Origin: Saprospiraceae bacterium
GTDB lineage: Bacteria; Bacteroidota; Bacteroidia; Chitinophagales; Saprospiraceae
DNA: 64,000 nucleotides
Direction: 5' to 3'
Assembly: GCA_958295895.1 (NCBI GenBank)
Contig: CATQHI010000002.1
Location: 310,001-374,000 of the forward strand
The translations under genes were made by a program, and so were the position numbers. Below the pieces are notes generated by a model, which ran no database searches, was not told where the DNA came from, and saw only the letters and a program-made list of their open reading frames with translations. Position 1 is the stretch's first letter. Every line of letters starts with the position of its first letter. Positions 451 to 59,233 of the stretch are shown here, in pieces.

Positions 451-471
451 TTGCACCTGCGTCCCCGCCCC
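451..471 (+). repeat. dispersed 20-bp repeat, copy 1
   Basis: Copy of the window-wide repeat TTGCACCYGCGNCCCCGCCC, here with GT at the variable position. It lies 7 bases after the MscS stop codon, reading antisense to the repeat consensus on the gene's own strand. Confidence 0.8.
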
Positions 472-477
472 CCCTGC

Positions 478-1938
478 TTAGCCTCTTCTGCGGGTTTGAC
501 CGAGTGGCCATTCGAGGACTGGGTGGTGATGAGGCGGTCCAGACCCTTGCCCGCCACGGATCCAGAGGTCGCGCTGGGGGAAGGGAATCTCGACGCCGCG
601 CTCGCGGGAACATCTTATCAATGGCGAAGCGGACGTCGCTCTTGATGTCCTCGATGCGGATGAGGTCGCGCGACCAGAAGAGGACGTCGAAATCGAGGGA
701 GGAGTTGCCGAAGTCGATGAAGCGCACGATGGGCTTCGGGGTCTTCAGGATGCGGGCGTGCTCATCCACCACCTTGAAGAGGATCTCGCGCACCAGCTCG
801 GTATCGGAGCCGTAAGCCACACCCACCTTGACGTGAAAGCGGGCCTTGCGCTCCACGTGGCTCCAGTTGACGACGTTCTCGCCGATGAGCTTGGAGTTGG
901 GGACGAAGATGATGATGTCGTCGCGGGTCTCTACCGTAGCCGTGCGGGCACCGATTTTGCGCACCGTACCCACTTCATGATCGGCCACCTCCACCACATC
1001 GCCCCACCATGACGCTGCGCTCGAAGAGGATGATGACGCCGCAGATCAGGTCGTTGAAGGTCTGTTGTAGCCCGATACCGATACCTACTAAGAGTGCCGC
1101 CGCCCCCGTCCATAGTACCAGCAGGTCGAAGCCCGCCGCTTGCAGCACCAGCAGCACGCCGACCACGTAGACGAAGTAAGTGATAAGCCGATTGATGGCG
1201 TACTGGCTGCCCGTATCGACCTTCGAGCGGCGCGGTAGTAGGTTCCTAGGACCAGGTTAGTGATGGTCCATGAGCAACAGTCGCAGAAAGAGGAAGATGG
1301 CCGTTGGCCTGCGCCAGATTACCCAGCGTAATCAGGATACTGTCCTCGTTGATGGGCTCGCTAAAGGGATAGAGTACGTACTTACTCAGGCCCGTATCCT
1401 GTAGTATGATGAGGATGGCCAGGGTATACATCAGGGGGCGCACGGCCCGGAAGCGCTCCGTGGTGTCCCGCTCCGCGTCGCGGGTCTGCTGCGTGGCCGT
1501 ATTCTGTAGGTGCGTATGGTGGTAGCGCTGTACGAGCAGCTCCTCGATCAAAATATCGAGCACATTGGCCACGATGAAGGCCAGTAGCGCCCTTGACAAT
1601 CGTGCTGATGCGGTATGGTCAGGTACACCGGTGGCCCGTCCTCGGTCGAGGCCTGCTGGATGGGCTTCGTCGATGAAGGTGATGTCGAGTGTGAAGAATG
1701 CGTAGAATAGCAATGACCAGTAGGCTCACCAGCGAAAAGCGGATCACGGCCCGCACCCGGGTACGGTTCTTCTCCGACACCGACTCGCGGCCGTAGTACC
1801 AGGGCAGCACCTTGCGCAACAGCAGGGGAGTTCGCCCCCAGCAACAGGAAGGCCGCCAGGCCGATCAGCAGTAACTGATGGGCCGTGACCGTAAAGCCAT
1901 TCACGTCGAGCAGCAGGATGTCCCCGTAATCTGTTCAT
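478..1938 (-). pseudogene. MscS-family mechanosensitive ion channel, multiply frameshifted
   Basis: Small-conductance mechanosensitive channel of the inner membrane that opens under membrane tension. Joining frames gives an N-terminal TM segment (TAHQLLLIGLAAFLLLG), further TMs, then the pore and beta-domain: GIGIGLQQTFNDLICGVIIL, ERSVMVGD-VEVADHEVGTVRKIGARTATV and IIIFVPNSKLIGENVVNWS, and a C-terminal alpha/beta domain ending RERGVEIPFPQRDLWIR. At least seven frame changes occur (for example near 605, 1003, 1260-1290, 1700, 1830 and 1928). The conserved protein is intact in sense between breaks and no domain is missing, so sequence errors are likelier than decay. Start is the ATG at 1938; divergent from the adenine deaminase. 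Confidence 0.8.
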
Positions 1939-2023
1939 GGTCGGAGTAAAGTAAGCCGTCTTTTCCGCACGGGATGACAACCCCGCGGCACACCAGCCGT
2001 TGGCCCCAGCAAACGCCTCACGC

Positions 2024-3686: not shown

Positions 3687-3703
3687 ACCTGCGCTATACC
3701 TAA

Positions 3704-3963: not shown

Positions 3964-3983
3964 CTGCACCTGCGCCCCCGCCC
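3964..3983 (+). repeat. dispersed 20-bp repeat, copy 2
   Basis: Copy with CGCC at the variable part, located between tRNA-Val and the lipoprotein gene, directly upstream of the -7 box at 3992. Confidence 0.7.
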
Positions 3984-7919: not shown

Positions 7920-7939
7920 GGGCGGGGCCGCAGGTGCAA
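7920..7939 (-). repeat. dispersed 20-bp repeat, copy 3
   Basis: Exact consensus copy, two bases after the stop codon of the HD-domain gene and just before the stop of the convergent FG-GAP gene. Confidence 0.85.
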
Positions 7940-7941: not shown

Positions 7942-9648
7942 TCATTCGAGTGGGCGCAGCAACAGCACGGCGCGGTAAAGTCGATCGTCGTCCGCCCGGC
8001 CGGTCAGGTGACAGGTCGCGGCAGATAGTGGGGGTAGGGACACGGTAGTGACGGGACCCGCCTGCCTGAGTAGTAACCGTCCGTAAGCATCGTACAGGCG
8101 AACGTCGCTTAGCGCACGGCTAAGGTTGATGGTGCCGCCGTGCGAAGGGTTTGGATATACTGCCAGCGGCCGTACTACTGGCTCGTACGTAGCCGTAGTG
8201 CCGCTGGTGGTGACTACCGCGGCGGCACCCTCCGTAAGGTCGTACCGTACATCCGTGACCAGGCCGGGGTACGTACTCACCGCTCCGCCGGGCCAGTGCA
8301 CTACTACACTGTCGAGGGTCTCCGCGTTACCCAAGCCCAGGTGTAGTACCCGGTCGTGCTGACTGGCGAAGCTGCCCCCGGCGCGCACCTCAGCAACCTG
8401 CCGGTGGCCCTGCCCCGTCCATACGCTCACGTGGGCTCCGATAGCATCGCGGTTGCCGGTCGTGCCGGTGAGGCGCAGCTTGATCCAGTGGTGGTCGGTA
8501 TTAGGGGTCGCGTTGCGAAACAGTTCGCTGGCCTGCCCGCTGTTGGCGACAACGAGATCGGGCAAGCCGTCACCGTCGAAATCGGCGGTAGCCGCACCGT
8601 AGCCGCTCAAAGGGCTACAAATAATCGCGTCCGGTGTAGTTGCCGCCGAGAATGCCCCGTCGCCGTCGTTGTGGTAAAGGATGTTGTTGTAGCGCTGACC
8701 TCCCACGGCGAAGCTGGTCTCGTTGGCGACGTACAGGTCGGGGCGGCCGTCGAGGTCGTAGTCGAGCCAGGCGGTGCCCCAACCCATGCCCAGGTCATTG
8801 GTGCGGCTATCGAAGCCGAGCTCGCGAAAGGTACCGTCGCCCTGGTTTTGGAGCAGGAAGTTCTCGTAGAGATTAGTGACGTAAAGGTCGAAGTCGCCAT
8901 CGCCATCGTAGTCGGCGGCATCTACGCCCATGCCGTCGCCGACCACGTCCGTTCCGCTCGCGGCACTTACATCGGTAAAAATGCCATCACCCTGATTCTG
9001 GAGCAGTACGTTGGGCTGGTAGCCGTCGTGGACGAGGTAGAGGTCCTGGTCGCCGTCCTGATCGTAGTCGAAGGCTAGGGTACCCATGCCCAGCCCTGTT
9101 TCCGCTGCACCTGCGTTCGCGCCCACTTCTTCAAATTGGAGCTTGCCCAGGTTGCGGTACAACTGATTGGGGGCGTTGAGGCAGCTGAGGTAGAGGTCGA
9201 GCAGCCCATCGTTGTCGTAATCGAAGACGGAGCCGGCCTGCACCGGGGCGTCGAGGGTGATACCGCTACCGGCGGTGATGTCGACAAAGGTACCGCCCTG
9301 CTGCCGGAACAGTCTGCTGGGCTCGGACTTATTGCCGATGAAGACCTCCGGTACGCCGTCGTTGTCTAAATCGGCCCATAGGGAAAGCATGCTATTGCCG
9401 GCTGTAGCGAGCGGGCCTTGCTGACCTACCTCGGTGAAACTGCCGTGCCCGTCGTTATGGTACAACCGGTTGGGCCCGTCGAGGACGGAGAGGAACAGAT
9501 CGGGGGCACCATCCCCATCGTAGTCACATACCGATACCCCCCGTGCCCGCTGCTCCCCCGTGATCCCCGCCTGCTGGGCCACCTCCGAAAAGGGCTGCTG
9601 GGCCGTAAGCAGTAGAGGAAATACGGAAAGGATGAGTAGCGTACGCAT
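7942..9648 (-). CDS. CRTAC1-type FG-GAP/ASPIC-UnbV protein with T9SS sorting domain
   Basis: Secreted 568-residue protein. The signal peptide MRTLLILSVFPLLLTAQ is followed by about eight FG-GAP/VCBS calcium-binding repeats (DYDGDGAPDLFLS, DYDNDGLLDLYLS, DYDQDGDQDLYLV and so on) forming a beta-propeller. An ASPIC/UnbV domain follows (about 400-460, VVVHWPGGAVSTY), then a T9SS type A sorting domain beginning LAVYPNPSHGG and ending RAVLLLRP. This CRTAC1 layout is typical of secreted carbohydrate-associated proteins in this phylum. It starts 10 bases after the SusE/F-like gene and is the last gene of the sus operon. Confidence 0.9.
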   Translation of the reverse strand: MRTLLILSVFPLLLTAQQPFSEVAQQAGITGEQRARGVSVCDYDGDGAPDLFLSVLDGPNRLYHNDGHGSFTEVGQQGPLATAGNSMLSLWADLDNDGVPEVFIGNKSEPSRLFRQQGGTFVDITAGSGITLDAPVQAGSVFDYDNDGLLDLYLSCLNAPNQLYRNLGKLQFEEVGANAGAAETGLGMGTLAFDYDQDGDQDLYLVHDGYQPNVLLQNQGDGIFTDVSAASGTDVVGDGMGVDAADYDGDGDFDLYVTNLYENFLLQNQGDGTFRELGFDSRTNDLGMGWGTAWLDYDLDGRPDLYVANETSFAVGGQRYNNILYHNDGDGAFSAATTPDAIICSPLSGYGAATADFDGDGLPDLVVANSGQASELFRNATPNTDHHWIKLRLTGTTGNRDAIGAHVSVWTGQGHRQVAEVRAGGSFASQHDRVLHLGLGNAETLDSVVVHWPGGAVSTYPGLVTDVRYDLTEGAAAVVTTSGTTATYEPVVRPLAVYPNPSHGGTINLSRALSDVRLYDAYGRLLLRQAGPVTTVSLPPLSAATCHLTGRADDDRLYRAVLLLRPLE

Positions 9649-16001: not shown

Positions 16002-16022
16002 TTGCACCCGCGGCCCCGCCCC
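16002..16022 (+). repeat. dispersed 20-bp repeat, copy 4
   Basis: CCCGCGG variant of the repeat, 11 bases beyond the stop of the SpoIIM-type gene and upstream of susC. Confidence 0.85.
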
Positions 16023-25402: not shown

Positions 25403-26845
25403 CTACTTGGCGGCCTCGTAGGTCATCTTCACCAGGCGCAGTCGGTTGCGGTACTCGCTGGGCAGTACGAGCTCGTTGCTGGCTACCTGGATACCGTCAC
25501 GAAAGCGGAGGCGGAGCTCCAGGTCGCGGGTATTGAAAAGGCTATTGCGGTCGAACTCACCGCGGCCGTTGAGCACGTACTCACTCACCGTGTTCTCGAA
25601 GCGGATCTCGTCGTTGAAGAGGAAGCGCAGCTTGGAGGGGCTTTCGAGCAAAAAGAAGCTGGAGTAGACGCCGCCGTCGTCCTGGCTGTACTGCTTCTTG
25701 TGCATGATGTTGCTCCAGTGGGGGCTGCCGTCTGGGTTGACCGCGAAGACCACGATCTCGTCGTAGTGGTAATCGACCAGCGGCCGGCCGCTGTAGGTGT
25801 TGAGGAGCTGATTCTGAATGGCGCCGCCGCGGCGCTGGAGCTGGCGATCGCGCTCGGTGATCATGACCATGCCACCATCGCGCCGCAACATGGCATCGCG
25901 CACGGTAAGGTCGTTGATACCGGGATTGCGCTTACTGTACTTCTTACCCTCCACGTTCTTCACCAGGTTGACGGGGAAGCGTTGGAAGCTCGGCCGCTGC
26001 GTGCTGGCCCCCGGGTCGATGGTGACGAAGAAGTAGCCCTCAGCCCGCACGAAGTCCTTGGTGGAGTAGAGCCCGCCGGCCGTCAGGTGCCGGTTTAGGT
26101 TATCGTACTTAAAGAAAACGTCGTAGGTGAGGCTGTCCCCCAGGTTGACGTCGATCATGCCGGTCTGCCCGCCGTTGGCCGCATGGGTGTACACCTCGTA
26201 GCGGTGCTCCTTGCGCCGGCTCTTGAAGTTGTCGCGCTCCACCACGAAGTACATATCGCCGGCGTTACTGATCTCAGCCTGCAGAAAATCTTCTCCGTAG
26301 AAGAATTTATCCGGTGAGAGCTCGCTGTCGTAGAGCAATTGCATGCTATCCAGGTCCACGGCCAGGTAGCGGGCCTTGCTCTGCTGCTCGACCATCAGTA
26401 GCAGCAGCTTGGTATCGTCTTCGGAGCGCGACACCTTATCCTCGGGGGTTGTAGCGAAGAGCCCAAAGTCGACCAGCGTCACACTATCCTGCAGGTTGCC
26501 GGCCGGGTTGTAGCGATCGAGTTGGAGGTGGTTGCGCCCCCCGTCGCGGTAGAGGTACAGGAGGTGGAATCCGGTGCCGTCCTGCTGGGCCACGGCGTCG
26601 AGCATACGGATGTTACGGCCGCGCAGTTCCAGGTCTTTCTCCCAGGTTTGGTTCATGCTACGGCCGTAGGCGGTCAGCAGGTGCTTGTTCTCGCGGTCCT
26701 GTAGGAGGAGGACCTGTCCGCCGAGCTTCCCGATCAGGCTATACTCGGTATCGTTGCGCATGGTGAGCTCGTCACTCACGGTCAGCACTTGGGCGCGGAC
26801 GCAGGTGCAGGCTAGGAGGACAAGGGCGATCAGTACGTGGCGCAT
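25403..26845 (-). CDS. secreted protein of unknown function
   Basis: A 480-residue protein with a clear signal peptide (MRHVLIALVLLACTCVRAQ). The mature part has repeated beta-strand-like units with Asp/Asn turns (LYDSELSPDKFFYGEDF, DVFFKYDNLNRHLTAGGLYS, DEIVVFAVNPDGSPHWS) and could be a beta-propeller, but I recognise no family. No sorting domain or lipobox is seen, so it is probably periplasmic. Not obviously in an operon with the rhomboid gene (99 bases apart). Confidence 0.75.
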   Translation of the reverse strand: MRHVLIALVLLACTCVRAQVLTVSDELTMRNDTEYSLIGKLGGQVLLLQDRENKHLLTAYGRSMNQTWEKDLELRGRNIRMLDAVAQQDGTGFHLLYLYRDGGRNHLQLDRYNPAGNLQDSVTLVDFGLFATTPEDKVSRSEDDTKLLLLMVEQQSKARYLAVDLDSMQLLYDSELSPDKFFYGEDFLQAEISNAGDMYFVVERDNFKSRRKEHRYEVYTHAANGGQTGMIDVNLGDSLTYDVFFKYDNLNRHLTAGGLYSTKDFVRAEGYFFVTIDPGASTQRPSFQRFPVNLVKNVEGKKYSKRNPGINDLTVRDAMLRRDGGMVMITERDRQLQRRGGAIQNQLLNTYSGRPLVDYHYDEIVVFAVNPDGSPHWSNIMHKKQYSQDDGGVYSSFFLLESPSKLRFLFNDEIRFENTVSEYVLNGRGEFDRNSLFNTRDLELRLRFRDGIQVASNELVLPSEYRNRLRLVKMTYEAAK

Positions 26846-27012: not shown

Positions 27013-27036
27013 TGCAGACCTTCCTAGGCTAGGGCT

Positions 27037-27098: not shown

Positions 27099-27668
27099 TC
27101 AGTGCCGCCCGTCCATATTCACTGCACCCGCGGCCCCGCCCCCTGACAACACCTCCACCACCTCCACCGCCGCCTCATCCTCCAAGCCCAGGCCGAAGGA
27201 GCGCGACTTACCCCTATAACTAAACTGCACCTTACCCGGCCCCACGCCCCAGACCGACCACTTGCTATTAGCACTAAAAAAGTCCGTCTTGACCGGGCGG
27301 AAGCGGATGTTTTTGACCTCATCGCGGTCGTAGGTCTGCGTAGGACCGAGACCAAAAACGGTACGCTGCAACGACAACTCCGTGGCGGAAAGCGTGACGA
27401 TCTCGCGGCCGAAGTAGCCCCACAGCAGTACGCCGAGCACGAACAGGCCGCCGGCCATCCAGAGCAGAAACCACAGGAGGAGGAAGCCATCGAGTACTGC
27501 GTAGCCGCCGCTACCGAAGCCGATGTTGCCCAGCGCACTCATGGCCCCCCGCAGGCCGAAGTACCAGGCCACGAGCCAGAGCAGGCCGCCGATGAGCAGG
27601 TAGCGGTGCTTGGGGGTGGGCAGCTCGAGGCGGGTGACGCCGGGGGAAAGGGTGGAGGTATGCAGCAT
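27099..27668 (-). CDS. two-TM membrane protein, PH-like
   Basis: A 189-residue protein with two TM segments (YLLIGGLLWLVAWYFGLRG; VLDGFLLLWFLLWMAGGLFVLGVLL), then a cytosolic beta-rich domain (IVTLSATELSLQRTVFGLG, DEVKNIRFRP) resembling bacterial PH domains. Function unknown. The C-terminus includes the dispersed repeat, read as GGGAAGA, 8 residues before the stop. It diverges from the next gene, whose -7 box lies 5 bases beyond its start. Confidence 0.7.
   Translation of the reverse strand: MLHTSTLSPGVTRLELPTPKHRYLLIGGLLWLVAWYFGLRGAMSALGNIGFGSGGYAVLDGFLLLWFLLWMAGGLFVLGVLLWGYFGREIVTLSATELSLQRTVFGLGPTQTYDRDEVKNIRFRPVKTDFFSANSKWSVWGVGPGKVQFSYRGKSRSFGLGLEDEAAVEVVEVLSGGGAAGAVNMDGRH
27122..27142 (+). 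repeat. dispersed 20-bp repeat, copy 5
   Basis: Inside the C-terminal codons of the membrane-protein gene, read there as Gly-Gly-Gly-Ala-Ala-Gly-Ala. Confidence 0.85.
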
Positions 27669-34929: not shown

Positions 34930-37467
34930 GACCGCTTCGCGCCACCTAGCTTTCCTCGCCTTCCTCCTCCTACTTTGCACCAGCGTACGCGCCCAGAATG
35001 TGACGCCCCCCTCGGCCTTCCTGCCGCACGCGCTGGGCGAGACCTTTACGCCCCACTACATGCTTGTGGACTACTACCAACTAGTAGCCCAGGAGAGCCC
35101 CCGCGTGATGCTAGAGCAGTATGGGACAACGAACGAGGACCGCCCCCTGCTGCTGGCATACGTCTCTACACCGGAAAACCTGGCCCGCCTGGAGCAGATC
35201 CGCGAGAATAACCTGCGGCGCGCCGGACTGCTGGAAGGCACCACCGTCCCCGCCCTTGACGACATCGCCATCGTCTGGCTCAGCTACAGCGTACACGGCA
35301 ACGAGGCGGCCGGCTCCGAGGCCAGTATGGGGGTGCTCTACGATCTGGCCGACCGGATAATGCCCAGACCGGCGAGTGGCTCCAGAACGTGGTCGTACTG
35401 ATGGACCCCAGCGAGAACCCCCGACGGCTACAACCGCTATACGAACTGGTTCCGGCAGGTGCAAAATAAGGACGTGAACGCCGACATGGCCACCCCGCGA
35501 GCACCAGGAGCCCTGGCCCGGCGGCCGCGTGAACCACTACATGTTCGACCTCAACCGCGACTGGGCCTGGCAGACGCAGACCGAAAGCCGGCAGCGCCTC
35601 GTGAAGTACCACACAGTGGATGCCGCACATCCACGCCGACGTGCACGAGCAGGGCTACACCTCACCGTACTACTTCGCGCCGGCCGCCGCCCCTTTTCAC
35701 GAGTACATCACCGACTGGCAGGGCAACTTTCAGACCGAGATCGGGCAGAACCACGCCAAGTATTTTGACCGCAACGGCTGGCTGTACTTTACACGGGAGC
35801 GCTTTGACCTACTCTACCCCAGCTACGGCGATACTTACCCACCTTCAACGGGGCCATCGGCATGACCTACGAGCAGGGCGGGGGTAGCCGCGGCGGACGG
35901 GCCATCGCGCTGCCCACCGGCGATACCCTCACGCTCTACGACCGGGTGGCCCACCACCGGGCGACCTCGCTGAGTACGGTAGAGATTGCTTCGCGGGAGG
36001 CTGACCGGCTCACCGTGGAATTCGCCAATTACTTCGCCAATGCTACCCGCAATCCGCAGGGGCAGTACAAGACCTACGTGATCAGCGGCAGCAACTCGCC
36101 GGGTAAGCTACGGGCACTTACTACGCTGCTCGACCGCAACGGAATCCAGTACAGCCGCGCTACCAGCGAGCGGGACTACGAAGGCTACGACTACACCACC
36201 GGCCAGAGTGGCAAGACGCGGGCGGCGGCCGGGGACCTTATCATCTCCGCCTACCAGCCCCGCGCGGTGCTCACACCAGGTGCTCTTCGACCCCTCGGCG
36301 GTGGTGGAGGATTCGGTGACCTACGACATCACGGCCTGGTCGCTGCCGGCTGCCTACGGGCTGCAGACCTACGCCAGCACCGACCGGCTCGACCTGGACA
36401 CCGAGCCCTACGAGCTGCCTGCCTACACCGATCCGCTGGCGGAGGTAGACATTGCCACCTGCCTACGCCTTTGCCCTACCCTGGGAGGGGATGAATACGG
36501 CCCGCTACCTGGCCGAGCTGCTGCGGGCGGGCATCCAGGTGCGGACGTCCACGGCGGCATTCACCTTCGGCGAGCGGGAGTTTCCGGCCGGTACCCTGGT
36601 GGTGAACCGGGGGGATAACCGGGTGACGGAGGGCTTCACGGAGAAGCTACGCCGTATTACGCGGGAGCACGAGGCCAATGTATCGGTACTAGAGACCGGC
36701 TTTAGCACCAACGTCGGCGGTGACCTGGGCGGCAGCAACTTCGAGCTGGTCACGGCCCCGAAGGTAGCTACCGTGAGCGGCGAGGGAGTGTACAACAATG
36801 AGTTCGGCCAGGTCTGGTACTACTTCGAGCAGGAGCTGGAGTATCCGGTGAGCGTGTTCCACCGCGAGGATATGGGCAGCATGTTTGGGGGCGACTACGA
36901 CGTGCTAGTGCTGGCCGAGGGCCGCTACAATTTCACCGATAGTGAGCTAGAATCCCTGACTGGCTGGGTACGCGACGGGGGCAAGCTCATCAGCCTAGGC
37001 GCAGCCAACGGCAGTCTGGCGGGTAAGGAGGGTTTCGGCCTCAAGGACAAGGAGCCGGCCGATACCCTCTCCGAGGCCGCCAAGCAGGAGAAGTTGCTAC
37101 TGCCCTACGCCGGTCAGGAGCGCCGCTTTATTGCCGGCTACATCCCCGGGGCCATCATCGACGTGGAGCTGGACGAGACCCATCCACTGAGTTTTGGCAT
37201 CGGCCCGCGCTACGCCTCGCTCAAAACTTCAGATGATGCGTATGCCTATTTGGAAGACGGCTGGAACGTCGGTAGGATTCGGGCGGGGACGCAGGTGCAA
37301 GGGTTTGTGGGCAACGAGGCCTACGGAAAGATACAGGAGACCCTCAACTTCGGGGTGGAGCCTATGGGGCGGGGTGAGGTGGTGTATCTGGTGGACAACC
37401 CGCTGTTTCGGGCATTCTGGGAGGAGGGAAGTTTCTGTTTGCTAATGCGTTGTTTCAGGTGCAGTAG
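34928..37467 (+). pseudogene. M14-family zinc carboxypeptidase, multiply frameshifted
   Basis: Secreted peptidase of about 845 residues when frames are joined. Signal MTASRHLAFLAFLLLLCTSVRAQ; peptidase domain with the zinc ligands of SVHGNEAAGSEAS, then [36 protein letters not shown] and MTYEQGG (catalytic Glu region); a C-terminal region (FGIGPRYASLKTSDDAYAYL) typical of these large M14 proteins. At least seven one-base frame changes (near 35345, 35405, 35500, 35620, 35840, 36280, 36460 and 37430). Restoring the last gives the ending FANALFQVQ and stop at 37467. Confidence 0.85.
37281..37300 (-). repeat. dispersed 20-bp repeat, copy in M14 gene
   Basis: Perfect copy of the 451-471 variant inside the M14 gene, but in a different frame from most genic copies: read as RAGTQVQ. 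Confidence 0.8.
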
Positions 37468-37510
37468 CGAATGTCTCATAAGCGCTGCGCGCTTACTTGC
37501 CATAGGGTTC

Positions 37511-37708: not shown

Positions 37709-37729
37709 CCGCACCTGCGACCCCGCCCC
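37709..37729 (+). repeat. dispersed 20-bp repeat, intergenic copy
   Basis: Variant with CGACC, ending 10 bases before the ATG of the HD-domain gene. Confidence 0.78.
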
Positions 37730-43192: not shown

Positions 43193-43212
43193 GGGCGGGG
43201 CCGCAGGTGCAA
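43193..43212 (-). repeat. dispersed 20-bp repeat, exact copy
   Basis: Exact consensus copy between two minus-strand genes, 6 bases past the stop of the gene at 43219. Confidence 0.85.
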
Positions 43213-43528: not shown

Positions 43529-45325
43529 TTACCGAGCGTACTTACCCACCACCTCACCGGCGGCCAGTACGTGCCCCTGCATCGCCTCCAAGAGTTCCGC
43601 CCGGCTGGCTCCGAAAGGCAGCTCCAGCTCCGTATCCAGCGCGAATACCTGAAAGTGATACGGGTGAGCGGGATCGCCCTTAGGGGGCCGGGGACCGTAG
43701 TACCCCAGCGATCCATAATCGTTCGGGCCCTGTAGCGCTCCCTTGATTCCTGGCACGGTAGGTCCGCCGGGGGTGGCCTCGGCTAACTCCATCTTATCGG
43801 CTGGCAGGTTGTAGAGCGACCAGTGAAGGAAGGGAGGATTCAGCGGTACGGCCGGGTCCTCCATCAGTACGACGAAGCTTTGCGTGCCCTCCGGTGCGCC
43901 GCTCCAGGCTAGCGGGGGTGAGATATTTTCCTGCTCCGCGGCGTAGCGGTTAGGGAGGGTAGACCCCTCCGTAAAGGCACTGCTACCTACGCTGAGCTGG
44001 GTGGAACCTTCGGTGAGTTGCGTAGCCAGGGAATCCGGCGTGTCGGCGGCCTCGGTAGGCGCCGCGATGCCGGTCATGCGTACGTTGGCTCCATCTTCGT
44101 TGGTTGGTTTGCCGGGGTTGTTTGCACCTGCGGCCCCGCCCCCTTCGGCGTAGCTGACCCGGTAGATCACGCCGTTGGTGTCGTCGGTGAAGAGTAGGGA
44201 GCCGTCACTGGTTTCGGCCAGTCCGCAGAGCCGGCCGCGGTGGCCCCATTCGTCGCCTTCCTGGGTCACGAAGCCCTGTACGAAGGGTTCGAAGGCAGCC
44301 GGCTCACCGTTTTCGAAGTGAATGCGCACTACCTCGTAGCCGGAGGGGGGCTGGCGGTTCCAGCTGCCGCGCATGGCAATGTAGGCATCCCCCCGGTAGT
44401 CGGCGGGAAAGCTGCTGCCCCGGTAGTACGCGAGCTGCATGGGCGCGGCGTGGGGGGTATACAGTCCAATGGCCTCGGCGCTCTGAGCCTTCCAGTCCTC
44501 CATGGTGATGCCGTCGGGGGGATAGTCAGCGGGGTTGTACTTGCCGTCGGCGTAGACGTAGGGCCAGCCGTAGGCATTGCCCTTTACGATTTGGTTGAGT
44601 TCCTCGTGCTGCTCGTTGTCGCCGAGCCAGTCGATACCGTGGTCCATGCCGTAGAGCTTGCCGCTGCCGGGCGCGAAGCCGTAGCCGATGGTATTGCGCA
44701 GGCCGGAGGCGTAGATGCTCCGGCTGCTGCCATCGGGTGCGATGCGGAGCATGGTGGCGTTCTCGGGGTTGGGCTCGGCGCAGGCGTTGCAGGTGGAGCC
44801 GGCGGTGAGGTAGAGGTGCTTATCGGGGCCGACCACGACCATGCGGTTGGGGTGCTGACCGCCGTCGGGCAGGTCGTCAAGCAGTAGGGTGAGGGTATCC
44901 AGGCTGCCATCGGACTTGATCTTGGTCATGTACAGGTCCTTGATCGTGGTCAGGTACATGGTATCGCCCGTGATGGCGATGCCGTGCATGCCGGGTCGGT
45001 TGGCTACGACGCGCTGCTCGTCGGCCGTGCCGTCGCCGTCGGTGTCGCGCAGCAGCATGACGTCGCCGAGCTTGCGGCGGGTGACGTAGACGGTGCCGTC
45101 TTCCGCCACGGCCAGCATACGGGGGTTTTCCAGCTCGCGGGCGAAGACGTTCACGGTAAAGCCTTCCGGTACCCGCAGTACGGAGAGATCATCGGCAGCC
45201 GGGGGTAGTTGTTGGGGTTCTACGACGTGGCCGACTACTTCTACGTTGGCGGTCTTTACGTCGGGTCCCTGTGCGTAGAGCAGGGTGGTGAGGAGGAGTA
45301 GGGGGAGGGTTAGGGGCTTAAGCAT
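43529..45325 (-). CDS. PQQ-type sugar/sorbosone dehydrogenase fused to a PEBP (YbhB-like) domain
   Basis: Secreted fusion of 598 residues. After the signal MLKPLTLPLLLLTTLLYAQ, residues about 40-395 form a six-bladed propeller of the glucose/sorbosone dehydrogenase type (PEGFTVNVFARELENPRMLAV, GMHGIAI, NRMVVVGPDKHLYLTAG, ASGLRNTIGYGFAPGSGKLYG, YIAMRGSWNRQPPSGYEVVRI). A Gly/Ala linker encoded by the dispersed repeat and a Thr/Ser-rich stretch follow. Residues about 440-598 are a phosphatidylethanolamine-binding-protein domain (ISPPLAWSGAPEGTQSFVVLMEDP, HWSLYNLPA, YYGPRPPKGDPAHPYHFQVFALD). Substrate not known. Confidence 0.9.
   Translation of the reverse strand: MLKPLTLPLLLLTTLLYAQGPDVKTANVEVVGHVVEPQQLPPAADDLSVLRVPEGFTVNVFARELENPRMLAVAEDGTVYVTRRKLGDVMLLRDTDGDGTADEQRVVANRPGMHGIAITGDTMYLTTIKDLYMTKIKSDGSLDTLTLLLDDLPDGGQHPNRMVVVGPDKHLYLTAGSTCNACAEPNPENATMLRIAPDGSSRSIYASGLRNTIGYGFAPGSGKLYGMDHGIDWLGDNEQHEELNQIVKGNAYGWPYVYADGKYNPADYPPDGITMEDWKAQSAEAIGLYTPHAAPMQLAYYRGSSFPADYRGDAYIAMRGSWNRQPPSGYEVVRIHFENGEPAAFEPFVQGFVTQEGDEWGHRGRLCGLAETSDGSLLFTDDTNGVIYRVSYAEGGGAAGANNPGKPTNEDGANVRMTGIAAPTEAADTPDSLATQLTEGSTQLSVGSSAFTEGSTLPNRYAAEQENISPPLAWSGAPEGTQSFVVLMEDPAVPLNPPFLHWSLYNLPADKMELAEATPGGPTVPGIKGALQGPNDYGSLGYYGPRPPKGDPAHPYHFQVFALDTELELPFGASRAELLEAMQGHVLAAGEVVGKYAR
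44122..44142 (+). repeat. dispersed 20-bp repeat at a domain junction
   Basis: Exact consensus copy, encoding GGGAAGA at the boundary between the dehydrogenase and the linker to the PEBP domain. Confidence 0.88.
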
Positions 45326-45480: not shown

Positions 45481-46911
45481 ATGCGCCTGCTTCCTTTACT
45501 CCTCATCCTATTCACCCTACCCCTCGCCGCCCAGCAGCTCAACATCGACAATAGCCTACCCCGCCTCACCGTAGAAGGGGATACCGTCGACGCCCACGAC
45601 GGCCGCATCATATTGTTCGAAGACACCTACTACTGGTACGGCACCAGCTACGGCACCACCAACGGCTTCACCACCGCCAACCACTACGTCGTCTACAGCT
45701 CGCCGGATATGAAAAGCTGGACCAGGGAAGGCCGCCTGCTCCCCGACCAGCCCGAGGGCGTGTACTACCGGCCCCATGTCATCTACAATGCGGCAAATGA
45801 CAACTATGTGCTCTGGTACAACTGGTACCCTCAGCTCTGGGACGGACAGTTCGGCGTAGCCACCAGCCCCACCCCCACCGGCCCCTTTACCATCGTGAAT
45901 GACGACGTGCAGATGTTCCGCTCCGAGGTGGGCCTGGGCGACTTCGGCCTCTTCGTCGATGCCGACAGCACCGCTTACATCAGCTACAATACCATCCAGA
46001 ACCACCAGGTCAGCATCGAGCGGCTGAGTGACGACTACCTCTCCTCCACCCAGGAGAACGGCGGCATCATCGCCGAGCACAGCGAGGCCGGCTCCCAGTT
46101 CAAGCGCGACGGTAAGTACTACCTGCTTACCGACGTTACCTGCTGCTTCTGCAATTACGGCTCCGGCGCCCGCGTCTACGTCTCCGACCACCCCACGGAG
46201 GGCTATACCCTGACCACCAACATCAACCGCTACCCCGGCCGGCCCGCCCTAGTCCTGACTGACGGCGTGACTACCGGCACGAGCTACGAGACCCTGGCCA
46301 CCAACGATACCCTGCCCCAGAGCCTCGTTGCCCTGCACCCGCGTCCCCGCCCCCTTAACCAACTGACGCTCAGTGTATTCACCGGCAACCGCCCCGAGAA
46401 CTGCGGCGACGTGAGTAACCCCCGCGTACACCCCGAGATCGGCACGCCCGAATTTACTGTGTCGTACTGGGACTTCGATCACTGGCAGGAGGTAGATTCC
46501 CTCAAGGTAGAGCGAAACGGAACGGCCCTCCGGCAAACCCTCCACATGACCTTCGCACCGGTCGCCAGCACCCGCATCAAGCTTACGCCCCGCCCCGGCT
46601 ACCCCTTCCCCGCCATCTACCCCACCGAACTCACTGCCGGGGACGCAGATGCGGAGAACGAGCTTCAAGTCTACGTGACGGGCCACGACATCCCCCAGCC
46701 CCCGATCGTGCCCGCCCAGCAGGCCTACGTGATGGAGCTGCCGACCGCGGAGGGCACCGCGTACATCTGGATGGGCGATCTGTGGGGCTCGGCCTCCGAT
46801 AATGTGAAGGGGCATGACTACCCGTACTGGAGTGCGCCGCTGGAGTTTCTGGAGGATGGGTCGATTCTGCCACTGGAGTGGGCGGATACTTGGAGCGTGG
46901 ACCCTGAGTGA
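45481..46911 (+). CDS. GH43-like secreted glycoside hydrolase
   Basis: Secreted enzyme of 476 residues. After the signal MRLLPLLLILFTLPLAAQ, a five-bladed propeller of the GH43/GH117-like type is visible: VDAHDGRIILFEDTYYWYGTSYG, VYSSPDMKSWTREGRLL, RPHVIYNAANDNYVLWYN and FVDADSTAYISYN. A C-terminal segment ends VMELPTAEGTAYIWMGDLWG and WSAPLEFLEDGSILPLEW. It resembles the galactan-active GH43 group, but the sugar is inferred. Between residues about 260 and 400 lies an inserted beta-rich region whose start carries the dispersed repeat (ALHPRPRPL). Confidence 0.82.
   Translation: MRLLPLLLILFTLPLAAQQLNIDNSLPRLTVEGDTVDAHDGRIILFEDTYYWYGTSYGTTNGFTTANHYVVYSSPDMKSWTREGRLLPDQPEGVYYRPHVIYNAANDNYVLWYNWYPQLWDGQFGVATSPTPTGPFTIVNDDVQMFRSEVGLGDFGLFVDADSTAYISYNTIQNHQVSIERLSDDYLSSTQENGGIIAEHSEAGSQFKRDGKYYLLTDVTCCFCNYGSGARVYVSDHPTEGYTLTTNINRYPGRPALVLTDGVTTGTSYETLATNDTLPQSLVALHPRPRPLNQLTLSVFTGNRPENCGDVSNPRVHPEIGTPEFTVSYWDFDHWQEVDSLKVERNGTALRQTLHMTFAPVASTRIKLTPRPGYPFPAIYPTELTAGDADAENELQVYVTGHDIPQPPIVPAQQAYVMELPTAEGTAYIWMGDLWGSASDNVKGHDYPYWSAPLEFLEDGSILPLEWADTWSVDPE
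46333..46353 (+). repeat. dispersed repeat inside GH43-like gene
   Basis: CCCGCGT variant, on the gene's own strand in the reverse sense to most genic copies, read as LHPRPRP. Confidence 0.78.
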
Positions 46912-48432: not shown

Positions 48433-51228
48433 CTAACGACCGCGCAGAACTATCCGGTGCTGTCCGGTCTGCCCGGTAGCGGGGTCCTCTACGCGCAGCA
48501 GGTACACGCCGGCGGGGTAGGTGCCTACGGCCAGCCGGAGCTCTCCGGTGAAGGGGGTGCTGAGCAGTTGACGCCCCGTGGCGTCGACCAGGCGAGCCCG
48601 CAGCGCAGTCGACTGCGAGTACCGCAGTTGCAGCCAGGGGCCGGCGGGGTTGGGGTAGACCTGCAGGGTACCGTCCAGTACGGCGGTGGCCGTGGAGGTG
48701 GTCTTTTCCATGATACCGTCGCAGTTCTCATCTACGTCGTTGTCGGCGATCTCCTTGGCACCGGGGAATACGGTGGGGTCATTGTCGTCGCAGTCTATCC
48801 AGAAGTACGTGCCATCGCTATCCTTATCCAGATCCTCTACGATGGTGGAGACCACGGTATTAGTGATCACCGGGCGGTTAAAGTCGAAGAAGATACCGGC
48901 GGTGTTCTCGATGCGGGTGAAGTCGGGTAGGTCCTCCTTAGGTTTGATGTCAAAGACCACGAAGCCCTGGCTAGCCGTAGCCGATACGGAACTATCGACC
49001 AGTTCGATCCCGGGGAAGTCGACGGTCAGCAGGCCATTTTCCGATAGCGTGAATTCGTAGGGGTGACTGGCGTGAATGGGCAGCAGGGTAGTCCAGTCCA
49101 GGTGCTCCGACAACTGGTCCTCGATGCGCACCGCGAAGGCCGTATCGTTGCCCATATTCTCGAAGCGGATGCGGTAGCGCAGGGTCTCGTCGGCCTGGGT
49201 GTAGTTGCTGTTAGTGTCGTCGGGACGGTAGGGAAGCACGGACTTGTCGTTGGGGTCGACGGCGCAGCGGAGTACGGTACGGTAATCGACGCTATCGGTG
49301 ACGGTTGCCTCCCCGGAAAAGCTTGCACCTGCGGCCCCGCCCAGGATGATGGTATCACCGGCAAAGTCCTCGTTGGGCAGCTGCAGCTTCATGGAGTTGT
49401 GGTAGGACTCACCGGGCTGTAGGGTATCGAAGGTGAAGGTGATGGTATTGTCGGTAAGGGTGACCGAGTCGCGGGCCACGGAGATGAAGCTGACGTTGTC
49501 CTGTAGCCTGACCGTAGCGGTACCGGCCAGGGGCAGACAGCCGTCGTTGCGTACCGTGATCCAGAAGGGGGCCTTGGTGTTGCAGCGCACGCGGCCAGCA
49601 TTGAAGTAGAGGGTCAGGTCGGCCGCTCCGTCCTCCAGGGCGTAGCCGAAGTCGATGTCTTCGTACTCGTCGGTGGGCACCGTGATGGTGTAGCTATCGG
49701 CGGCAGTGGTACGGGCGTAGCAGTCGGGCTTGTGGGCGGTAACGGTATAGGTTTCGCCGTCGATCACGGCCAGGGCGTAGTTGCCCTCGTCGTCGGTGGT
49801 GAGGAACTCCTTCGTTTCGGGCCCCTCGATGGTCACGAGCAGGTTAGCAATACCGGGCTCATCGGCGTCCTGGGTGCCGTTCCCGTTTTCGTCCGCGAAG
49901 GCGGTGCCGTGCAGGGTACGCTGGTCATCGATGGTGAGGTAGTGGAGCTGTTCACCGCGGCCATCGACCCGGGCGGCAAAGTACAGGCGATTACCGATGG
50001 TGGCCAGGGGCGGGTTGGGCCCTACCAGGTTAAAGTCGGCGGCCACCTCCTGAAGGTCGTCGTTACGGGGGTCAAAGAGGTACACCGGGTGATGGTCGCT
50101 CGTGATGGCCAGGTAGTTGCCTAGGCGGACGGTCTGGGCGGGGCCGCGGGTGCTAATCTTTTGGAGGGTGGCCGCATCGCGGGTGCCGGCGCGAGTTCCG
50201 TCGGTGAGGACGATCTTCCAAATGCCTTGTTCGGTGCGGCGGTAGAAGAGGGCTTCATTATCATCGATGCGGGTCACTCGGGGGATGGGGATAGCGGAGT
50301 GGTCATCTACGCCGGTCCATTGTAGGTATTCTGCCTGGCCGGTGTTATAGTTTACGGCAAACACGCCGCCGCTAGTATCACTGCCGATAAGGGCAAAGGG
50401 CAACGCAACGGAGGTATTGGTTGCCAGGCTAGCCTGTAGTTCGGGACCGATAGCGGTAGGGGTGATGAACTCCAGCGTAGGATATAGATCATGGATGGAA
50501 TAGGTGCTATGACGGACTATCGTATGATCACCCACCCGCTCGAAGGTCAGTGCCCGCTCACTTTCACGTTCACCGAGGTCATTGACCTCCCCCGTAGCGG
50601 GATCATAGGTAGCGGGCCCGACGCTGGTGCCCTGGGCGTGGGCGAAGTACACTAGCTTACCGTCGGTCACCACATTGGTGGTGTCCGGGTAGTCGCTATT
50701 GGCGATTACATCGGAGACTACGATCTTGCTTTGCTCCGTGGCAGGGTTGGACTCGATGAGCTGGACGGTTTGTACCTCGTTATCCCCTACTTTCTGGTAG
50801 CGTAGGGCGTAGAGTTTGCTATTGACGAGCACCGGTGTAGTATGGTAGTACTTGGAATTTTCCAGCAGCGGAAACTCCAGTAGCTCAGGCACCGGTATGA
50901 TGGCGTCGACGACGATGTTGTAGCGCTCATCGTCCGTAGCGTAGTGGAAGTAGTAGGTATCGCCGACGTTACCTAGCAACTCGATACCGTCGCGCAGTCC
51001 CACCCCGCCCTGAAAGCTAAAGGTGGACTCGGCCGAGCCATTGGAGAGGTAGTTCACATCGCCCTCGGTGGCCCAGTAGATGCGGCTGCCGATGGGGGCG
51101 AGCTCGAGGATCTTGGTCCCGGGGTCGTCGGGGTTGACATCGAGGAAATCGAGCTGGTAGGGGATCGTCTGCGCGCCGACAAAGAAGGGCAGCAGGAGGG
51201 GAAGGGCAAGGAGGTAAAACTTCATCAA
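48433..51228 (-). CDS. large T9SS-secreted multidomain protein
   Basis: A 931-residue surface protein. Signal MMKFYLLALPLLLPFFVGAQ; an N-terminal region (about 20-440) of beta-propeller type with ELWxxDGT-like units (KIVLTDGTRAGTRDA; GNRLYFAARVDGRGEQLHY). A SdrD B-like domain about 445-510 (GTAFADENGNGTQDADEPGIANL) and DUF11-like Ig domains (YRIRFENMGNDTAFAVRIED) follow. A MopE-like calcium segment (WIDCDDNDPTVFPGAKEI) and a type A sorting domain (LQVYPNPAGPW to GVYLLRVEDP) close it. Two dispersed-repeat copies lie inside. Ligand unknown; it precedes the sulfatase. Confidence 0.88.
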   Translation of the reverse strand: MMKFYLLALPLLLPFFVGAQTIPYQLDFLDVNPDDPGTKILELAPIGSRIYWATEGDVNYLSNGSAESTFSFQGGVGLRDGIELLGNVGDTYYFHYATDDERYNIVVDAIIPVPELLEFPLLENSKYYHTTPVLVNSKLYALRYQKVGDNEVQTVQLIESNPATEQSKIVVSDVIANSDYPDTTNVVTDGKLVYFAHAQGTSVGPATYDPATGEVNDLGERESERALTFERVGDHTIVRHSTYSIHDLYPTLEFITPTAIGPELQASLATNTSVALPFALIGSDTSGGVFAVNYNTGQAEYLQWTGVDDHSAIPIPRVTRIDDNEALFYRRTEQGIWKIVLTDGTRAGTRDAATLQKISTRGPAQTVRLGNYLAITSDHHPVYLFDPRNDDLQEVAADFNLVGPNPPLATIGNRLYFAARVDGRGEQLHYLTIDDQRTLHGTAFADENGNGTQDADEPGIANLLVTIEGPETKEFLTTDDEGNYALAVIDGETYTVTAHKPDCYARTTAADSYTITVPTDEYEDIDFGYALEDGAADLTLYFNAGRVRCNTKAPFWITVRNDGCLPLAGTATVRLQDNVSFISVARDSVTLTDNTITFTFDTLQPGESYHNSMKLQLPNEDFAGDTIILGGAAGASFSGEATVTDSVDYRTVLRCAVDPNDKSVLPYRPDDTNSNYTQADETLRYRIRFENMGNDTAFAVRIEDQLSEHLDWTTLLPIHASHPYEFTLSENGLLTVDFPGIELVDSSVSATASQGFVVFDIKPKEDLPDFTRIENTAGIFFDFNRPVITNTVVSTIVEDLDKDSDGTYFWIDCDDNDPTVFPGAKEIADNDVDENCDGIMEKTTSTATAVLDGTLQVYPNPAGPWLQLRYSQSTALRARLVDATGRQLLSTPFTGELRLAVGTYPAGVYLLRVEDPATGQTGQHRIVLRGR
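49323..49342 (+). repeat. dispersed 20-bp repeat in the T9SS gene
   Basis: Exact consensus copy, read as GGAAGA within an Ig-like domain. Confidence 0.85.
50136..50154 (-). repeat. dispersed repeat, second copy in the T9SS gene
   Basis: CCGCGGG variant, in the opposite orientation to the copy at 49323 of the same gene; read as STRGPAQ. Confidence 0.75.
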
Positions 51229-51355
51229 TAGATGGTGGTGGGGTCGATAAATGAGTGCCGGTGAGGAGGATAAGGCCGGGTAAAAACCTGGTTTATCACC
51301 GTGAATGATTGGCGTGGGTATAGAACGTTGGGGTGGGGGGATTATTGGGTGGGGG

Positions 51356-53691: not shown

Positions 53692-53710
53692 GGGCGGGGT
53701 CGCGGGTGCT
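53692..53710 (-). repeat. dispersed repeat, variant abutting a start codon
   Basis: gggcggggtcgcgggtgct, the same variant as at 31011, directly upstream of the GNAT ATG with no gap. Confidence 0.68.
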
Positions 53711-53732
53711 GGGAACGTCGGATAGGCGCAGA

Positions 53733-54428: not shown

Positions 54429-54430
54429 CT

Positions 54431-54501: not shown

Positions 54502-54522
54502 TCGCACCCGCGGCCCCGCCCC
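54502..54522 (+). repeat. dispersed 20-bp repeat, intergenic copy
   Basis: CCCGCGG variant, 10 bases beyond the stop of the Gfo/Idh/MocA gene. Confidence 0.83.
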
Positions 54523-56707: not shown

Positions 56708-56729
56708 CGACATCACGGCATTTTAGATG

Positions 56730-56808
56730 CACTGCTATACATGGCCCGTTCTCCCTCTCCTTTGGAGAGGGCCGGGGAGAGGAAAAACTAGGGCCATGTA
56801 TAGCAGTG
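56730..56808. repeat. MITE-like element with 18-bp perfect inverted repeats
   Basis: Arms cactgctatacatggccc (56730-56747) and its exact complement (56791-56808) enclose 43 bases that contain a second perfect stem, ccctctcc-ttt-ggagaggg. It lies in the divergent gap before the rhamnosidase. The inner wording is a widespread Bacteroidota intergenic hairpin. Confidence 0.8.
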
Positions 56809-56895
56809 TAGCATTTAGTAAAACCCGGGTAAGATAACAACCCCCCGCCAGTACCCACCATACGCCGTACTTTATACCCCATCAACTCCTCCCCC

Positions 56896-59233
56896 ATGCG
56901 GCTGCTGCTGGTTCTGCTCTTCGGTTACAGCCTGTGTGCTATGGCCCAATCTACGTCCCCGGACTGGACCGAGCGCCCCTGGCCCGCCGCCTGGATCACT
57001 GCATCCTGCGCCCCCGCCACCGACTTTGCCGTGGTGCACTTCCGCCGGAGTTTTGATCTCTCTATTCTACCCGATAGCCTGCCCGTCATGGTCTCGGCCG
57101 ACAACCGCTACCAGCTCTTCGTCAACGGCCAGCGCGTAGGCATGGGACCGGCCCGCAGCGACCGCCTGCACTGGCGCTACGAGACTTACGACTTGTTACC
57201 CCATCTACAGCCCGGCCTCAATACGATCACCGCTACGGTCTGGAATTACGGTATCGACCGGCCGTGGTCGCAGGAGAGCTACCGCACGGCCTTTCTGTTG
57301 CAACCCCGGGGGAAGGACTTTGCGGAGCTACGTACCGATGCTACCTGGTCCACCCGCTGTGACGAGGCCTACTCCCCCATCACCGGCTCCCGCGAGCGCC
57401 TGGGCACCTACATCGTGGCCGGCCCCCAACTGCGTATTGACGGCAACAAACTGGGCGGGGGCGCAGGTGCCATGCAAGTAGAAGAGGCGGCCGTATCTCT
57501 CCTGCAGGCCAATCCACGCGGCACGGGCACGGAAATGTACTGGCCATTAGTCCCGCGCCAAATCCCCCCGCTGGAACTTCGCCTACTCCCCCCACCACAA
57601 GTGATTCAAGGCAACCAGCGCGTGGGGGCCTTCGCCGATACCCTACTACCGGCCGGCACCCGCGATAGCTTCCTGCTCGATATGGGACAGCTGACGAACG
57701 CCTTCTTTAAGTGGCAGACTACTGGGGGCGCCGGGGCAAAGCTCACCATCACCTACGCCGAGAGCCTCTTTGAGTCTGACGGCGGCAAGGGGCACCGCGA
57801 CAGCATCGCCGGCAAGCACATCCGCGGGGTATACGACGAGTACCTGACGGCGGGGGATGAGCGGACCTATACCACCCTCTGGTTCCGCACCGCCCGCTAC
57901 CTGCAGGTGAGCTACGAGACGGCCGACGAGCCCCTACAACTGCGCGGTTTGGAAGTCGAGGAGATCGCCTATCCTTTCCAGGAGGTGGGCAGCTTTAGCA
58001 GTCCGGACGGGGAGCGCCGCATCGGTGATATACTCGAGGTAGGTTGGCGGACCGCCCGGCTCTGCGCCCAGGAGACCTACGTGGACTGCCCCTACTACGA
58101 GCAGCTGCAGTACGTGGGGGATACGCGGATCCAGGCGCTGATCAGTCTGTACGTAAGTGGAGATGCCCGGCTGATGCGTAAGGCCATCGAACTCTTCGAC
58201 GACAGCCGCATGGCCGAGGGACTGACCATGAGCCGCTACCCCGATCATACCGGACAGGTCATCCCACCCTACTCCCTGATGTGGGTGATGATGGTCTACG
58301 ACTACCTCATGCACACCGGCGATGCGGCCTTCGTACGCGAGCGGCTGGATGGGGTACGAGCCGTACTCGACTGGTACCGCCGCCACGAGCTACCGAACGG
58401 TCTCGTGGGCCCCACCCCCTACTGGAACTACGTCGACTGGACCCCCGAGTGGCCCTGGAATAGTGAACTGCGCATCGGCGGGGTGCCGCCGCTGGAGGGG
58501 GGCAGTGCGATCATCAGCGGACAGTACGCGATGGCGCTACGGGCCGCGGGAGAGGTCTTTGCTGCCTTAGATCTTACGGAGGATGCTGAAAAGTACGCTG
58601 ACCGAGCTACGGCGGTTACTGGTGCCATTCAGGCTTTGTGCTGGGATGCGGAGCGGGGGCTGCTGCGCGATACGCCGGAGGGTACCACCTACAGTCAGCA
58701 CGCCAACATCATGGGCATTCTCAACGACGGGCTGCCGGTGCCGAAGGAGGAGGTGCTGGAGCGCGTGTTAGAGGACACTACGCTCACCCAGTCGTCCGCC
58801 TACTTCGATTTCTACCTCGCCGAGGCCTTGCGGGCTGCCAGGCGGGGCCGATCTATACCCCGCCTTTCTGGACCAGTGGCGCGGCTACCTCGATCAGGGC
58901 TTCACCACCTACCCCGAAAAACCCGGCGAGACGCGGTCGGACTGCCACGCCTGGAGCAGCAGTCCCAATTATCACCTGCCCTCCCTACTGGCGGGTATTC
59001 GTCCGGCCGCGCCGGGTTTTACCACAGTGAGCATTCAGCCGGCGGAAGTAGCAGACTTTGGTTACACGGCCGTAGTGCCTACGCCGCGGGGAAAGATCCG
59101 GGTGACGTGCGAGCCCCGCCCAGAGAGTGACAGGCCTCGGTACACGGTGGTGCTGCCGGAGGGCGTGGTGGGGGAGTTCATGGGCTGGGGCCTAAGGGAG
59201 TCTCTGGGGGCGGGGGAGCGGGTGGTGGAATGA
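56896..59233 (+). CDS. GH78-type alpha-L-rhamnosidase, one frameshift
   Basis: Secreted glycoside hydrolase of about 778 residues releasing terminal L-rhamnose. Signal MRLLLVLLFGYSLCAMAQ; N-terminal beta domains (FVNGQRVGMGPARSDRLHWRYETYDL); the (alpha/alpha)6 barrel with CAQETYVDCPYYEQLQYVGDTRIQ (the GH78 acid motif), YPDHTGQVIPPYSLMWVMMV and WNYVDWTPEWPW. A C-terminal beta domain carries TRSDCHAWSSSPNYHLPSLLAGIRP once the frame is restored. One base is gained near 58840; uncorrected, the frame ends at 59130. The dispersed repeat (GGGAGA) lies at codons 186-191. Confidence 0.9.
57453..57470 (-). repeat. dispersed repeat, variant in the rhamnosidase gene
   Basis: gggcgggggcgcaggtgc, truncated by two bases, read as GGGAGA between two beta domains. 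Confidence 0.6.

Follow-up and report, generated by a model that had tools for sequence, protein, structure and literature searches.

The window, a stretch of 64,000 nucleotides from a Saprospiraceae bacterium (contig CATQHI010000002.1, positions 310,001 to 374,000), carries a dispersed, GC-rich word of 20 bases with the consensus TTGCACCYGCGNCCCCGCCC. Searching both strands with up to three mismatches, we find 19 copies, 11 on the plus and 8 on the minus strand; their position relative to genes follows our own gene caller (Table 1). One hundred dinucleotide shuffles give 0.10 copies on average and one at most. Chance or base composition as the origin of the repeat is ruled out by these shuffles, together with the mirrored control in the whole genome described below.

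A first-pass annotation had reported at least 16 copies, without strands, and had judged their recurrence to be beyond chance; both points stand. Of its 18 positions, 16 are recovered within three mismatches. At 42870, listed as a variant, the DNA reads TTGCACTTCCAGCGGCCCCGCCC, copy-like with extra bases and outside that set, and at 24575, listed as a degenerate copy, there is no copy. Three weaker matches, at 9105, 26791 and 34975, are added. The rest of the description is borne out: the word is not palindromic, several copies lie close to gene ends (7920, 16002, 53692 and 54502) and the copies share no common flanking sequence. Outside the 20 bases, conservation across the genome is weak and is clearest for a C four bases ahead of the 18-base core, GCACCNGCGNCCCCGCCC.

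Table 1 Copies of the 20-base word in the window, with strand and gene context.
Feature	Position	Strand	Context
Motif copy, exact	451..470	+	inside gene 428-997(-), opposite strand
Motif copy, 1 mismatch	3964..3983	+	intergenic, 34 bp ahead of start 4018
Motif copy, exact	7920..7939	-	flanked by two convergent stops, each 2 bp away
Weak copy, 3 mismatches, absent from first-pass list	9105..9124	+	inside gene 7942-9648(-)
Motif copy, exact	16002..16021	+	12 bp from stop of 16034-18004(-)
Copy, 2 mismatches, CCGC spelling, absent from first-pass list	26791..26810	-	encodes part of signal-peptide-like stretch LLACTCVRAQ
Motif copy, 1 mismatch	27122..27141	+	inside gene 27099-27668(-)
Motif copy, 2 mismatches	31011..31030	-	inside gene 30934-31653(+)
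Weak copy, 3 mismatches, absent from first-pass list	34975..34994	+	signal-peptide-like stretch (translated by eye)
Motif copy, exact	37281..37300	-	inside gene 36491-37522(+)
Motif copy, 2 mismatches	37709..37728	+	intergenic in own gene calls
Motif copy, exact	43193..43212	-	intergenic, 27 bp after 42920-43165(-), 6 bp before 43219-43467(-)
Motif copy, exact	44122..44141	+	inside gene 43529-45325(-)
Motif copy, 1 mismatch	46333..46352	+	inside gene 45481-46911(+)
Motif copy, exact	49323..49342	+	inside gene 48433-51225(-)
Motif copy, 1 mismatch	50136..50155	-	inside gene 48433-51225(-)
Motif copy, 2 mismatches	53692..53711	-	abuts start of 53161-53691(-)
Motif copy, 1 mismatch	54502..54521	+	11 bp from stop of 54533-55882(-)
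Motif copy, 1 mismatch	57453..57472	-	inside gene 56896-59130(+)

The genome to which the window belongs (G000; 4.77 Mb in 35 contigs, about 18% of it read as sequence stretches) contains 546 exact copies of the core, 256 forward and 290 reverse, versus none of the mirrored control. The count lies far above its control, and a cluster confined to the window is excluded; the first-pass annotation had named either outcome as grounds against a genome-wide signal. In a scan of 398 genomes of the family, the word is conspicuous in none but the 21 that belong to the same genus as the window. The 377 others hold at most 12 matches each, with controls up to 14. Within the genus, at up to one mismatch, eighteen genomes hold 284-1514 matches, against 6-112 in controls. 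The three exceptions within the genus are G137 (59 versus 16 in the control), G128 (10 versus 3) and G130 (6 versus 7). Loss of the word in these three was considered and rejected, as they have spellings of their own: G137 and G130 use a second form and G128 a third, so that some form occurs in all 21.

The genus is probably Neolewinella. By gltX the closest named relatives, each at 78% identity, are Neolewinella litorea and Lewinella sp. IMCC34183, in agreement with the "Lewinella-type" host proposed earlier. A more distant metagenome-assembled genome, Co_bin.246 (67% identity in gltX), has three copies in 17.9 kb. A de novo word search in seven genomes of other genera (40-60 kb each) and two named outside relatives (about 21 kb each) found no similar word, but the search was weak: when 60 kb of G000 were searched likewise, the best z was 5.6, no higher than for some words of G001 and G023 (6.5-6.7).

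The word is spelled differently across the genus. These dialects were derived from de novo word counts and profiles, and many of them rest on 8-120 kb and few sites. G130 and G137 share the spelling CTTTTTACCTGCGCTCCGCCGC, whose 15-base core has 673 and 302 matches, respectively, with up to one mismatch (controls 2 and 1); the other 19 genomes of the genus have 1-122. The spelling of G128 is CAYTGCTACTTTGNNAGYC; its genome holds TTGCTACTTTGNNAG exactly 510 times (control 0), and none of the 397 other family genomes has more than three matches. The remaining genomes vary around C..YGCACCYGCGNCCSCGCCC: G000 reads GCACCTGCGG-CCCCGCCC, G006 and G132 have GCWCC (GCTCC in G132 and part of G006), several clade-B genomes have CCGC, G127 has GGCAGC (9 sites) and G125 has GCACCGG (4 sites). 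The information content of the word is about 21-27 bits. At a profile threshold with about 10% false calls, its density is 2.1-3.0 per 10 kb in G000, G006, G132, G120, G116, G126 and G130, 3.25 in G128 and 4.25 in 40 kb of G137. A tree of ComEC, a single gene, pairs G130 with G137, G006 with G132 and G000 with G125, and sets G128 apart on a long branch of unsure place. The first two pairs share a spelling, GCTCC in the case of G006 and G132. By eye, CATTGC..CT..G of G128 stands in register with C.TTGC..CT..G. Separately, the stretches of G006 and G132 (L051-L058, L295-L312) contain species-specific dispersed families resembling palindromes, around CTCGTCCGCCGA/GTCGGCCGAC in G006 and ACCGTCCAACGG in G132.

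Positions of the word are kept between species even where its spelling is not. When species profiles are applied to homologous stretches, every species pair exceeds expectation: 35 of 38 words of G132 have a word at the homologous place in G006 (3.2 expected), as do 19 of 31 from G000 to G006 (3.1 expected), 16 of 27 from G130 to G000 (3.8 expected; 14 in the same orientation) and 8 of 9 from G137 to G130 (0.7 expected). The weakest pair, G000 to G137, gives 4 of 11 (1.2 expected). Conserved gene gaps tell the same for G130 and other species: 24 have the word on both sides of the comparison, all 24 in the same orientation, 13 and 11 have it on one side only and 262 are empty, an odds ratio of 44 from pairs that are not independent, since several species contribute. 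Among 13 gene pairs with G128, no orthologous site carries the G128 word.

Contig 2 of G000 is largely collinear with contig 3 of G006 and contig 1 of G132, at about 77% identity, and individual sites can be aligned there. Seven of its 30 sites have no mapped homologous stretch. Of the 23 aligned, 13 have a clear word in both relatives, often in another spelling, one is partial, two fall in gaps longer than the word and four are not alignable. The last three (117029, 229935 and 255369), all inside called genes, align in both relatives without a gap and without the word; substitution therefore makes or unmakes it. Gain cannot be separated from loss at these sites, because G006 and G132 are sisters. 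Read from these alignments, the word appears to be re-spelled in place and made or unmade by substitution.

The same alignments bear on a short mobile or inserted repeat. The copies are dispersed, and the G000 sites 228828 and 239411 fall within segments that exceed the word in length and are missing from both relatives. Against such a unit speak the absence of common flanks and of a palindrome, the gapless substitution at the three coding sites and the same places occupied in several species under different spellings. Gapless sites and shared places contradict mobile insertion as a general origin, and we consider this explanation barely credible.

Relative to genes, the word favours the spaces between them. 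Per base pair it is 4.2-15.3 times commoner between genes than within in all eight genomes counted with our gene caller, three of which offer 8-13 copies only (6.5 times in G128). In the stretches used for the spacing analysis below, 189 of 402 copies lie inside genes. Their orientation is 27 same and 36 opposite in G000 (p = 0.31), without significant bias in any single genome, and 77 same and 112 opposite when pooled (p = 0.013). Copies just upstream of genes share the orientation of the gene in a pooled ratio of 102:31, a bias significant in G000, the G006-like group and G130/G137, not in clade B or G128. It may simply reflect avoidance of G-rich leaders, because it is weaker in G128 (13:7), whose word is not C-rich. 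No fixed distance to gene starts was found.

When translated in frame, copies with or near the CCGC spelling give what reads as a signal-peptide end: LLACTCVRAQ at 26791-26810(-) and, by eye, LLCTSVRAQ at 34975-34994(+). A phage locus (L233, 11702-12562) has an ending of the same kind, LTLCTCVRAQ. Within genes, signal peptides may be a site at which the word is tolerated.

A promoter-linked, terminator or processing site would account for the upstream copies, mostly in gene orientation, and for the slight lean of copies in genes to the opposite strand. It fits poorly with nearly half the copies lying inside genes with no preference in any one genome, with the weaker upstream bias of G128 and with the lack of a fixed distance to starts. 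The near balance of orientations inside genes speaks against a signal read on RNA, which we reject, and gives no support to the mRNA-processing role that the first-pass annotation had offered; we regard a transcription or mRNA signal in the wider sense as very improbable.

The word is also found in phages. A first scan of viral contigs with a short pattern returned mostly single matches among the matches listed. With a long pattern, 47 stretches match, against three for a near-mirrored, somewhat stricter control; a few look like simple repeats (L223, L281). Twenty-three of the 47 belong to one related group, in which L245 encodes a terminase and a head protease. One phage contig of 38.7 kb (pieces L388, L391 and L398) has seven copies with up to one mismatch, about the density of the presumed host. 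In this group (L388, L391, L398, L245, L218, L387 and related loci) the copies lie between genes or on the opposite strand within them. These counts give no estimate of how frequent the word is in phages, because the phages were found through it. The word is scarcer in windows of low GC content, with 0.4 copies per 10 kb at 48% GC (5 windows) and 2.0 at 60% (105 windows), and is itself GC-rich; two motif-poor islands of G000, read by eye, hold genes that are not clearly mobile.

Along the chromosome both strands are mixed, in stretches up to 490 kb. The copies on the two main contigs divide 29:28 and 41:55 between the strands, and an apparent all-plus bias of contig 1 of G120 was rejected, since 80 kb of that contig hold seven of each. 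The replication strand cannot be read from GC skew, which is too weak here. We see neither polarity nor regional clustering in the stretches examined. Spacing is somewhat more even than random in three of four stretches, with coefficients of variation of 0.68-0.81 against 0.95-0.98; the fourth has 0.94 against 0.97. A nucleoid or chromosome-organising protein co-evolving with its binding sites would explain a genome-wide word, the somewhat even spacing and the positions kept between species. It sits less well with the lack of polarity and clustering and with carriage by phages, and it would provide no drive to re-spell hundreds of selected sites. We hold it to be unlikely; the mixed strands give no support to the chromosome-organising role suggested earlier, at least in a replication-polar or regionally clustered form.

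Pairs of copies show a spacing rule that is new here: up to a distance of about 3 kb, copies pointing the same way avoid each other, and those in opposite orientation do not. It was measured on 402 sites in 2.4 Mb from the 21 genomes of the genus and Co_bin.246, 158 of the sites being from G000. Same-orientation pairs number 3, 11 and 15 at <1, 1-2 and 2-3 kb, against 34 expected in each bin, then rise to 0.8 of expectation at 3-6 kb and 1.05-1.13 beyond 6 kb. The same three bins hold 49, 35 and 34 opposite pairs, again with 34 expected, and the ratio for these stays at 0.94-1.73 in all bins. Gene-context bias is rejected as the cause: simulations that preserve the orientation bias of each site's gene context fail to yield the rule (P 0.000-0.030 in the six bins below 3 kb, 400 simulations).

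Split by group, the counts of same to opposite pairs below 3 kb are 16:48 in G000, 0:17 in clade B with Co_bin.246, 3:19 in G128, 2:12 in G006, 6:14 in G130, 1:4 in G132, 1:2 in G137 and 0:2 in the rest, with some homologous sites shared between groups. Among 100 listed places of G128, which partly overlap its stretches, the three 1-kb bins give 1:11, 0:5 and 5:4. That a word of another sequence follows nearly the same rule speaks for a shared function. Convergent pairs number 14, 19 and 16 in the three bins, with about 17 expected, and divergent pairs are in excess below 1 kb (35). Simple polar uptake starting from the word would, by reasoning, leave convergent pairs short; their counts are close to expectation, and this model is rejected.

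The spacing rule is what keeps a Chi-like polar site in play. A helicase-nuclease processing DNA ends would be switched if it reaches the word from one side. Cover would be needed separately for either direction, so that a nearby copy in the same orientation is of little use and one in the opposite orientation is independent. Such a site predicts the observed rule, which holds also for the different word of G128, and a phage would gain from carrying it at host density as a help against degradation from its ends. Known Chi sites have 5-9 bases, however, far from the length and information of this word; related species spell it differently, a change that a nuclease serving hundreds of sites could hardly follow; no net strand bias appears along long stretches, though GC skew marks the replication strand too weakly here; and the word is in excess between genes. 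We regard the Chi-like site, the main rival of an uptake signal, as possible but doubtful. An orientation-dependent spacing with a range of kilobases, and a phage group with the word, would also suit a gene transfer agent or transducing phage that starts packaging at the word and spreads it by its own transfer. Eight proteins of the phage group have no tblastn match in the 2.4 Mb of stretches from the genus and Co_bin.246 to which the search was confined, and such an agent seems to us quite improbable.

The first-pass annotation had left the choice between an uptake signal, a Chi-like or chromosome-organising motif and a processing site. An uptake-type signal fits best, because of the restriction to one genus, the dialects, the origin by substitution and the intergenic excess; spread biased by transfer predicts all four, together with some 500 copies and concerted re-spelling in place. 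Judged from genome sequence, the word most likely marks DNA as self for uptake or repair. To the narrower reading, a self-DNA signal of the DNA-uptake-sequence kind spread by biased recombination, we give roughly even chances. A putative surface or envelope receptor would bind the word and favour the import, through ComEC, of fragments that bear it. Alleles with the word would then recombine into the population more often, the word would accumulate at dispensable places and its spelling would follow the specificity of the receptor as this drifts. In either role, uptake signal or Chi-like site, the word is probably recognised at the DNA level and polar.

ComEC itself is found by profile search in all 21 genomes of the genus, a weak support, because the profile also matches 10 of 14 control genomes. 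Riemerella, another member of Bacteroidota, is described in the cited passages as transforming with ComEC, DprA, ComF and RecA and with four proteins without known competence kin (PMC8459023), of which we sought one, the surface protein family DUF5689.

Several observations weigh against an uptake signal. The apparatus behind known uptake words was looked for and not found: none of the 21 genomes matches the type IV pilin signature (N_methyl, a profile of just 27 positions), against 8 of 14 controls, and matches to the PilB/PilT profile (T2SSE) are partial in 20 of the 21 and barely at the cut-off in 11; the only one read, in G000, is a ClpB-type ATPase. DUF5689 occurs in G128 alone, where three matches fall in one frame of 708 residues (contig 115, 8691-10592; L379-L381). 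As for the dialects, G000 and G125, a pair in the ComEC tree, seem to differ in spelling (four sites in G125), and by profile the word of G128 does not align with the others (p 0.36-0.94), nor that of G130 with that of G120 (p 0.12-0.24). Foreign DNA is expected to be poor in the word, whereas the phage group carries it at host density, and a segment of about 71 kb in G000 (contig 2, ~153300-224700), absent at that place in G006 and perhaps foreign or moved, is not depleted. The avoidance between copies in the same orientation is neither predicted by orientation-blind uptake nor explained by the simplest model, and uptake in H. influenzae is reported, in the part of the source cited, to be independent of orientation (PMC1939737). 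On the phages there is a precedent: gain of uptake words by Pasteurellaceae prophages is named as a sign of co-evolution in the cited passage (PMC7371117), and phage carriage is therefore compatible with an uptake signal.

A more novel reading, to which we give somewhat less than even chances, is an undescribed polar self-DNA system of Bacteroidota. A pilus-free machine would bind the word in one orientation and service about 3 kb, by import or by end-processing, for each orientation separately. The specificity of its receptor would drift so fast that hundreds of sites have taken on new spellings in place from species to species within the genus, and the tag would be carried by phages of the group as well.

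Another repeat in the window, unrelated to the word and some 71 bases long, lies mostly in intergenic DNA, at 51355-51425, 53731-53801 and 26981-27051. The latter two are 89% and 61% identical to the first, respectively.

To our knowledge, uptake-word systems occur only in Neisseriaceae and Pasteurellaceae, where type IV pili perform the uptake, and we know of no such self-tag word from another member of Bacteroidota. The titles and abstracts searched, a scope with most subscription journals and bioRxiv preprints outside it, contain no description of such words for Bacteroidota or Lewinella. A genus of this phylum whose word has many dialects, and in which no pilin signature is found, would be an independent case. 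The dialects offer ready material: a new receptor might be traced through proteins that co-vary with them, and the spread of such words by transfer bias could be tested.

Among known elements, the word differs from repetitive extragenic palindromes (REP), bacterial interspersed mosaic elements (BIME) and miniature inverted-repeat transposable elements (MITE) in being neither palindromic nor an inserted unit, and from motifs of the FtsK-orienting polar sequence (KOPS) and matS type in showing no terminus polarity or clustering, in stretches that cover about 18% of its own genome. With the Chi sites of RecBCD and AddAB it would share the polarity that gives the spacing rule; it is longer, changes spelling between species and shows no strand bias along contigs. 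Transformation of Riemerella anatipestifer is alike in involving ComEC in a member of Bacteroidota and in that the cited passages name no type IV pilus (PMC8459023); it differs in its DUF5689 protein, not found in 20 of the 21 genomes here, and those passages name no uptake word for it. The uptake signal sequences of Pasteurellaceae are, in the cited passages, likewise long motifs with relatively even spacing and no orientation bias round the chromosome (PMC1939737, PMC7811141). Here, parts of a type IV pilus were not found and orientation matters for spacing.

The DNA uptake sequences (DUS) of Neisseriaceae have 10-12 bases, against 18-20 for the word. The word belongs to another phylum, no pilin signature was found alongside it, and its copies avoid others in the same orientation; it occurs at about 1-3 copies per 10 kb, whereas one Neisseria genome has about 1900 DUS (PMC3630211). 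As far as the cited passages go, the two are alike in being very numerous, in having dialects and in being more frequent in non-coding DNA than expected (PMC1939737). The dialects of DUS follow the species tree (PMC3630211); here two pairs of the ComEC tree share a spelling and a third, G000 and G125, seems not to. The word may work like a DUS, and we do not file it as one because the machinery known to read DUS was looked for and not found. Its spacing rule is a quantitative hint of polarity, and the genomes of Neisseria and Haemophilus are at hand to check it.

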